A DNA stretch of 64,000 nucleotides from Kribbella flavida DSM 17836 (GTDB lineage: Bacteria; Actinomycetota; Actinomycetes; Propionibacteriales; Kribbellaceae), in NCBI RefSeq assembly GCF_000024345.1, contig NC_013729.1:1798001-1862000 (forward strand), read 5' to 3'. The notes beneath the pieces are model-generated. The model was not told the DNA's origin. It ran no database searches and worked only from the letters and a program-made list of their open reading frames with translations. Each line of letters begins with the position of its first letter. Position 1 is the stretch's first letter. The translations under genes and the position numbers were made by a program. This document shows, one piece after another, positions 57,560-59,206 of the stretch.

Positions 57560-58417
57560 TCAGATGTCGGGGGCCTCCGAGCGCGGCGTGCGGGTGATCG
57601 CGATCGACGCGGCGACCACGCAGACCATGCCGGCCAGCTGGACGGCGGCCAGGCGCTGGTGCAGGACCAGGAAGCCGGCGGTCGCGGCGACGGCCGGTTC
57701 CAGGCTCATCAGGATGCCGAACACGGCCGGCCGCATCGTGCGCAGGGCCAGCGTCTCGAGCGAGTACGGCAGGACCGACGAGAGCATCGCGATCGCGAAG
57801 CCGGCGAGCAGCACGTGCCCGTGCAGGAGCTCGGCCGCGCCGGCCGTCGCGAAGCCGGCCGGGACGGTGAGCGCGGTGGCGACGACCATCGACAGCGCGA
57901 GGCCGTCGAGCTGGGCGAACCGGCGCCCGGTCTCGGCGCTCAGCAGGATGTAGCCGGCCCAGAGCAGGCCCGCCAGCGCGGCGAAGCCGACGCCCAGCCA
58001 GTCGACGGCCGACAGTTCGTGCCCGTTGACCAGGACGACGCCGAGCCCGGCCGCGGCGACCGCGATCAGGTCGCGCCGGCGGCGGGACATCGCGGCGGCG
58101 AGACCGAGCGGGCCGATGAACTCGATCGTCACCGCGACGCCGAGCGGCAGACGTTCCAGCGAGAGGTAGAACGACAGGTTCATCAGGCCGAGCACGGTGC
58201 CGAAGGCAAGAACCGCGAGCAGGTCCCGGCGGGTCCGCTTCCGCAGGCTCGGGCGGGCGATCAGCAGCAGGACCGGCACGGCCAGCGCGAGCCGCAGCGA
58301 CACGGTGCCCGCGGCCCCGATCCGGTCGATCAGGTTCGACGCCAGCGCGCCGCCGAACTGGACGGACACCACCCCACCCAGCACCATCGCCGTCGGCGGC
58401 ATCCGGAACGTTCGCAC
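57560..58417 (-). CDS. EamA-family (RhtA-like) exporter
   Basis: The 285-residue protein has ten helices in two EamA repeats. The sequence LPLGVAVTIEFIGPLGLAAAMSRRRRDLIAV and SSVLPYSLETLALRTMRPAVFGILMSLEPAVAATAGFLVLHQRL resembles the RhtA branch that exports threonine or homoserine. It starts with GTG at 58417. It follows a TetR gene in the same direction, separated by a long inverted repeat. Confidence 0.87.
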   Translation of the reverse strand: MRTFRMPPTAMVLGGVVSVQFGGALASNLIDRIGAAGTVSLRLALAVPVLLLIARPSLRKRTRRDLLAVLAFGTVLGLMNLSFYLSLERLPLGVAVTIEFIGPLGLAAAMSRRRRDLIAVAAAGLGVVLVNGHELSAVDWLGVGFAALAGLLWAGYILLSAETGRRFAQLDGLALSMVVATALTVPAGFATAGAAELLHGHVLLAGFAIAMLSSVLPYSLETLALRTMRPAVFGILMSLEPAVAATAGFLVLHQRLAAVQLAGMVCVVAASIAITRTPRSEAPDI

Positions 58418-58464: not shown

Positions 58465-58571
58465 AGGCGGACCTGCGGCACTCACCAACCCGGCCGGCGA
58501 GGGCACGGCCAGGCGGGATAGGTGGTCTTCGGGCGGTGCCGCCGGGGTTGGTGAGTGCTGCAGGTCCGCCT
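58465..58571. repeat. Long inverted repeat with 27-bp arms
   Basis: The arms 58465-58491 and 58545-58571 are complementary at 26 of 27 positions (the exception is a G-T pair, allowed in RNA) around a 53-base spacer. It starts six bases past the stop of the TetR gene (58577). No target duplication or transposase is apparent. Confidence 0.88.
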
Positions 58572-58576
58572 TGACG

Positions 58577-59206
58577 TCAGTCGCCGCGGAGGGTGTGCAG
58601 GCCCTGCCAGAGCAGGTCCTGGAGAGTGCGGGCGGTCTTCTCGGCCGACGGCGGGTTCGTGCTGCGGGTGCGCCAGATCGCCAGCCGTTCGGTGGCGCCG
58701 GAGATCGTCTGGGCGATGACCTGGATCTCCTGCTCGTCGGTCTCCCGGTCGGCCGGCAGGTTGAGCCGGACCATGGTCGCGATCAGCTCGACGAAGTCGG
58801 CGCGCACCTCGTCGGCCGCCTGCGCCGCGGGACCGGCCGCCAGCATGCCCTCGTCGACGATCACCGACCAGGCTCGCGGGTGCTCGTCCAGGAACCGGAA
58901 CCAGGCCACCAGCCCGGCGTACATGGCGTCCTCGGCGTCCGGGGCGGCCAGCACGGCCTCCGACACGGCGTCGAGCAGTTGCGCGCGCAGGCGGGACAGG
59001 CAAGCGAGGAACAGGCCGTCCTTCGAACCGTAGTACTGGTAGATCAGCGGTTTGGAGACGCCGACCTCGGCCGCGATCTCGTCCATCGAGGTGCCCTGGT
59101 AGCCGCGGTCGCCGAAGATCCGCTCGGCCGCGTCCAGGATCTCCCGCTCCCGCGCGGCCCGGTCCCGCCGCCGCTTCACCGGTCCGCCGTCCGTGGTGGT
59201 CGTCAC
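58577..59206 (-). CDS. TetR-family regulator of the adjacent monooxygenase
   Basis: The 209-residue protein has the TetR helix-turn-helix (REILDAAERIFGDRGYQGTSMDEIAAEVGVSKPLIYQYYGSKDGLFLACLSRLR, about 22-75) and a helical ligand domain. It starts with GTG at 59206. It is divergent from the monooxygenase gene, and a perfect 19-base palindrome lies in the 68-base gap. The arrangement indicates repression relieved by the substrate of the monooxygenase. Confidence 0.92.
   Translation of the reverse strand: MTTTTDGGPVKRRRDRAAREREILDAAERIFGDRGYQGTSMDEIAAEVGVSKPLIYQYYGSKDGLFLACLSRLRAQLLDAVSEAVLAAPDAEDAMYAGLVAWFRFLDEHPRAWSVIVDEGMLAAGPAAQAADEVRADFVELIATMVRLNLPADRETDEQEIQVIAQTISGATERLAIWRTRSTNPPSAEKTARTLQDLLWQGLHTLRGD

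Follow-up and report, generated by a model that had tools for sequence, protein, structure and literature searches.

The window, a stretch of 64,000 nt from the chromosome of Kribbella flavida DSM 17836, contains a long inverted repeat between two genes of the minus strand: the stop codon of a TetR-family regulator gene lies 7 nt from the element, and the start of an EamA-type transporter gene lies 49 nt beyond it (Table 1). Re-reading the sequence bore out the description given in the first-pass annotation, including the position directly behind the TetR gene. The arms (58465-58491 and 58545-58571) match at 26 of 27 positions around a loop of 53 bases, the sole exception being G58477/T58559, and in a repeat search they can be extended to 34 nt at 91% identity. 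The predicted fold of the repeat strand lies 7.9 SD beneath the mean of dinucleotide shuffles (z -7.9). The RNA stem had been described as uninterrupted, which holds for a plus-strand transcript, with its G-U pair, but not for a minus-strand one. Because both genes are on the minus strand, where the G-T pair becomes an A/C mismatch, the stem is interrupted in the TetR/EamA transcript.

The arm sequence has no second occurrence within the window (zero expected from shuffles), and the single match of our family model R1 to the window is the element itself (E 2e-12). Compared with the family boundaries, the repeat at 58465-58571 has 2 more matching bases per side. By its span, the window copy belongs to the 79 class described below. 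Its presumed core, CAGGCGGG, which lies 21 nt from one decamer and 30 nt from the other, is assigned tentatively because the canonical TGAGCGTG is absent from this copy. No target duplication was seen here.

Table 1. Genes and element parts at the locus, in window positions
Feature	Position	Strand	Basis
EamA-type transporter	57560..58417	-	Pfam PF00892
Whole element, family boundaries	58467..58569	.	logo and model R1
Left 24-bp site GCGGACCTGCGGCACTCACCAACC	58467..58490	+	logo
Left outer block CGGAC	58468..58472	+	
Left decamer CACTCACCAA, portion varying among arm subtypes	58479..58488	+	
Presumed core, alternative form CAGGCGGG	58510..58517	+	read from sequence, position only
Right 24-bp site, inverted, minus-strand reading GCGGACCTGCAGCACTCACCAACC	58546..58569	-	
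Right decamer, TTGGTGAGTG on the plus strand	58548..58557	-	
Right outer block, GTCCG on the plus strand	58564..58568	-	
TetR-family regulator	58577..59206	-	Pfam PF00440, E 8e-20

A family of elements in Kribbella

A unique sequence present at the same place in all relatives, which the first-pass annotation would have taken as evidence against a mobile element, is not what we found; copies are dispersed over the K. flavida genome and across Kribbella. A similarity search of the 7,579,488-bp K. flavida genome located the arms at dozens of places, and the pattern ACTCACCAA-N35..65-TTGGTGAGT has 19 exact matches there, compared to 0 for the reversed control. A covariance model of 108 positions, trained on 50 elements that align without gaps and stem almost entirely from Kribbella other than K. 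flavida, gave at least 104 strand matches at no fewer than 54 loci in this genome (E <= 1; the locus count is a lower bound, with 150 candidates scored). The copies, about 50 in number, are spread round the chromosome. The same model detected the element in 35 of 38 Kribbella species, with copy numbers that vary widely between species, and in none of 81 genomes from the rest of the order. Across 85,000 species genomes, a pattern search identified at least 120 loci, and among the matches listed all but four were named Kribbella; two of these four belong to a strain filed under the name Streptomyces sp. SID13031, apparently a misnamed Kribbella, and the other two lack the outer block. Pattern matches from SAR116 and from Bacteroidales (L145) were rejected as family members for want of the CGGAC outer blocks, and a search with the outer block only returned mostly noise. 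In the papers searched, we came across no description of such a family. Altogether, this previously undescribed element family was found only in the genus Kribbella, and we consider its existence and anatomy practically certain.

Each copy measures about 103 bp from end to end and consists of two 24-bp sites, CGGAC-N6-CACTCACCAA, in inverted orientation. In the logo of 73 core-bearing copies of the 80-bp class, the site reads [GC]CGGAC-N6-CACTCACCAA-CC, inverted at both ends, with conservation that sets in at -11 and ends at +11. The interior usually includes an 8-bp off-centre core, TGAGCGTG or sometimes CAGGCGKG, and is otherwise free. The core is matched at 7 of 8 positions in 97 of 170 elements, against 8 of 170 expected with shuffled interiors; 73 of the 170 contain no good match. 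Among 54 K. flavida copies, the mean identity of the interiors is 44%, compared to 43% for shuffled ones, and few pairs reach 64-78%.

The spacing is far from free. Decamer-to-decamer spans (n = 170) fall into bands of 79-82 bp (145 elements), 67-71 bp (20) and 89-90 bp (3), with 2 outliers, the band of the 67-70 class being broader; the multi-species loci were chosen for exact decamers and gaps of 46-61, and the K. flavida set is unselected. The gaps between core and arms are 11, 20-22 or 30-32 bp. Both the span bands and the core-arm gaps are steps of about one helical turn. At orthologous gene pairs in two species, the spans are either equal within 1-2 bp or 9-11 bp apart, about one turn (69/80, 71/81, 70/80 and 70/79). 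The core shows no clear orientation bias relative to transcription or replication (26 opposite versus 14 same in tandem pairs; about even between replichores). Some elements, mostly of the 67-70 class, contain an inner inverted repeat, ACACGCCGT...ACGGCGTGT (K. flavida 1439617, 5173872 and 6288926; also L052, L105 and L118).

Where CACTCACCAA is scarce in a species, other decamers occupy the same frame of CGGAC and core. One of these, GCCATCACAA, with a span of about 69, reaches 29 exact copies (for example, in genomes G038, G092 and G110) and does not occur in K. flavida; another, CCCATCAA, is present in G107 and G010, with one copy in G098. The subtype switches between species, with CGGAC and core unchanged, and the two arms of an element are usually of the same subtype. 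At the TetR 3' end, the arms are of the CACTCACC type or a variant in K. flavida, G017, G059 and G032, and of the CCATCAAT type in G098 and G010. Side-by-side subtypes can share an outer block (GTCCGGAC, locus L290). Three tandem subtype-B elements lie at L361:440-921 with an exact 207-bp period. Arm types A and B are both missing from genomes G025 and G113. In L317, the first 90 nt past the antiporter stop hold a palindrome of shorter span with the CGGAC-N6 frame and inner GCAGGCAGAACCC, possibly a further arm subtype. A different family of long palindromes, ATTTGCCTGGCTGACCCATCAAATCGGGGGTT..., is present in several Kribbella genomes (L205, L206, L207, L210 and L213, around position 1480-1600).

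Placement at gene 3' ends

With genes called by our own, uncurated codon-usage finder, 83 of the 120 elements with a neighbouring gene 3' end begin -5 to +10 nt from the stop codon, a position taken by 8.6% of random intergenic points. Convergent gene pairs are enriched (39% against 11% expected) and divergent ones depleted (14% against 37%); of the 144 classified elements, 140 are intergenic and 4 lie inside predicted genes. The neighbouring genes share no function, and we saw no gene family that is repeatedly found next to an element. The possibility that these are operators of one regulon was rejected given the functionally unrelated neighbours and the location at 3' ends. In eight species, an element lies directly past the stop codon of an antiporter gene; in three species, the stops overlap and there is no element; others have different palindromes or short hairpins at this place. 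In one of them (G032, locus L321), the right arm of a decayed element forms part of a 19-bp stem with a 5-nt loop, which resembles an ordinary terminator. The second gene of many tandem pairs begins within 5-50 nt, so that a promoter would have hardly any space if transcription stopped at the element. The placement points to a role at gene ends without proving one, and a boundary function there is a tentative proposal to which we give somewhat less than an even chance.

Three elements lie within 7 kb of the K. flavida chromosome (1.2727-1.2731 Mb; L354:10687-11068), the middle one 8 nt behind a gene for an HU-family DNA-binding protein (PF00216). We rejected this gene as the source of a cognate protein since its adjacency to one element looks coincidental.

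Mobility, arm pairing and related elements

The first-pass annotation likened the repeat to a miniature transposable element, and this comparison survives in part. The elements are dispersed, old relocated copies occur, and the anticipated empty sites exist, at the 3' ends of the TetR and antiporter genes. Some K. flavida copies at unrelated places have related interiors (64-78% identity). In K. pittospori and K. capetownensis, the element is part of a younger composite repeat, about 350 bp long; this repeat is non-coding, contains several palindromic elements and occurs at many loci (L088, L097, L104, L123 and L141). Two 97%-identical paralogues, L141 and L123, differ by the presence or absence of one whole 105-bp subtype-B element. 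Taken together, these cases imply that an element is occasionally relocated or lost, a rare event that leaves no target duplication. These observations, along with the varied copy number, favour a selfish mobile element, similar to a REPIN or a MITE, with a transposase that would act in trans and require both ends and the core in register; placement at stop codons would reflect target preference or survival, and the arm subtypes would follow different transposases.

The rest of the comparison did not hold. The interiors are mostly unrelated between copies, and the best interior identity between K. flavida copies is 78% despite intact arms. At orthologous places, the arms and the spacing are kept after the interiors have diverged, which mobility alone does not explain, and placement is tied to stop codons. 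Like the first-pass annotation, we saw neither a transposase nor a target-site duplication: none of the filled/empty pairs shows a duplication, and no transposase or RAYT (Y1/HuH) was recognised beside the elements or in nine cluster regions, nor was any other cognate gene beside the clusters. Single arms in K. flavida flank ordinary genes with no transposase, and we rejected the view that a lone arm marks one end of a larger transposon. No element was found in phage, plasmid and viral-contig collections. On balance, we consider the purely mobile reading unlikely, although it is the strongest of the alternatives.

MITEs such as the Correia elements are non-coding, about 100 bp long, with terminal inverted repeats of roughly 24-26 bp and many copies near genes. 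The Kribbella elements share the size, the terminal inverted repeats, the multiplicity and the location near genes, but their interiors are not homologous, target-site duplication is lacking and no parent transposon was seen; an ordinary MITE was rejected on account of the interiors and the missing duplication. The DNA uptake sequences of Neisseria and Pasteurellaceae are genus-specific decamers with dialects that form inverted pairs behind stop codons in thousands of copies. The Kribbella decamers are likewise genus-specific, with dialects, and form inverted pairs past stops, but there are about 50 copies rather than thousands, nearly always paired at 80 bp and accompanied by an outer block and a core. 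The BIME/REP sequences of E. coli also form inverted intergenic pairs at gene 3' ends, in combinations, but each REP is itself a hairpin, and sequence and architecture are unrelated to those of Kribbella; REPs within 15 nt of stop codons have been reported to stall ribosomes (PMC12306157).

The nearest known kind are the REPINs, inverted REP doublets mobilised by RAYT that in Pseudomonas fluorescens have preferred distances of 71 and 110 bp (PMC3116915). The likeness extends to inverted conserved ends around a less conserved spacer, pairing of arms of the same group or subtype at preferred distances, several groups per genome, an extragenic and dispersed distribution and long vertical persistence. 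The defining feature of a REP is a short imperfect palindrome (hairpin) after a GTAG or CGTC tag (PMC3733652). In contrast, the Kribbella arms are not small palindromes and lack the sequence of tag and hairpin: single arms have no folding advantage over shuffles (mean -0.58 versus -0.70 kcal/mol), and among 108 arms GTAG occurs in 1 and CGTC in 14. Further differences are the helical-turn spacing with a central core and the tight placement at stop codons, and no RAYT was found nearby. The element thus has the form of a REPIN, yet we do not class it as one, because the defining tag and hairpin were sought and not found.

A second alternative is an RNA hairpin in the 3' part of both convergent mRNAs, a bidirectional terminator or mRNA protector in which arm pairing would be the active feature. 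The location directly behind stops, the enrichment between convergent genes and the stable fold of the repeat strand suit this possibility, as do the other palindromes and hairpins at the antiporter 3' end, including the one that uses a right arm. Arm pairing, however, is not conserved in K. flavida. In the unselected set, the two arms of an element have a mean of 5.94 differences in 24 positions, and re-pairing arms at random across elements gives 6.09 (permutation z -0.8, p = 0.25). Because arms resemble each other no more within an element than between elements, the hairpin is not the conserved feature in this species, and the conserved pairing of an intrinsic terminator is missing. The long uninterrupted stem is thus no property of the family; with 1 arm difference, the window copy is in the extreme tail of the K. 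flavida distribution, together with one other copy. In the 50-element alignment, about 40% of the copies leave the six spacer positions unpaired, and the alignment tests show little sign of RNA structure as the conserved feature, which the arm permutation rejects for K. flavida. Compared with shuffles, interiors of the 79-81 class are hardly more stable (mean z -0.6 to 0), and those of the 67-70 class often form strong hairpins (z about -3). Moreover, a hairpin needs neither helical-turn spacing nor a conserved core in an unstructured interior, and a search of Rfam gave only sub-threshold chance matches, none above the gathering score. Outside K. flavida, there are several cases of a rare variant common to both arms of one element (CACTGATC in G017; CACTCACT in G059; CACACACC in G006, G010 and G107; CACTCACA in G107; CACTGACC in G104), which leave some doubt on the absence of conserved pairing. 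Homomeric proteins of different specificity or a symmetric master copy would produce such variants; so would arm-to-arm templated repair or conversion, or pairing. Overall, the RNA reading appears improbable. A chance palindrome, or the ordinary terminator of one gene pair, would fit the single copy in the window, but the dispersed family and the zero expectation from shuffles already refute it, and its probability is negligible.

A proposed duplex-DNA element at gene ends

The arms are most simply explained as one and the same double-stranded site contacted twice, independently, and the element is probably recognised as duplex DNA. Inverted sites and a core at whole-turn spacing suggest a DNA-binding protein that reads double-stranded DNA; no such protein was found beside the elements. 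A putative multimeric protein would contact the core and the two arms from a single face of the DNA and may fold the approximately 100 bp into a compact complex. Less surely, this complex could mark or enforce the 3' boundary of genes, by stopping or insulating transcription or by managing topology between neighbours. The element itself spreads rarely. The combined explanation that we prefer, a Kribbella-specific REPIN-like element that acts as protein-bound duplex at gene 3' ends, stands at about an even chance.

A bolder version, which we regard as possible but unlikely, is that the element is a new kind of bacterial chromosome element, a three-site, helically phased duplex scaffold that would mark gene 3' ends. 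Within the one genus it would come in several interchangeable specificities, and a separate homomeric DNA-binding protein would read each of them. Under this scaffold reading, arm sequence and protein would co-evolve genome-wide.

It has long been debated whether short, dispersed palindromic repeats are selfish or benefit their host, and the Kribbella family offers a clean test. Because the interior is free, the constraint on the arms, the core and the turn-by-turn spacing can be measured directly, and because the decamer differs between species, the protein that reads it can be searched for by co-variation across about 40 genomes. With such a protein in hand, the family would stand as a new type of actinobacterial element, acting at gene ends or in the nucleoid.
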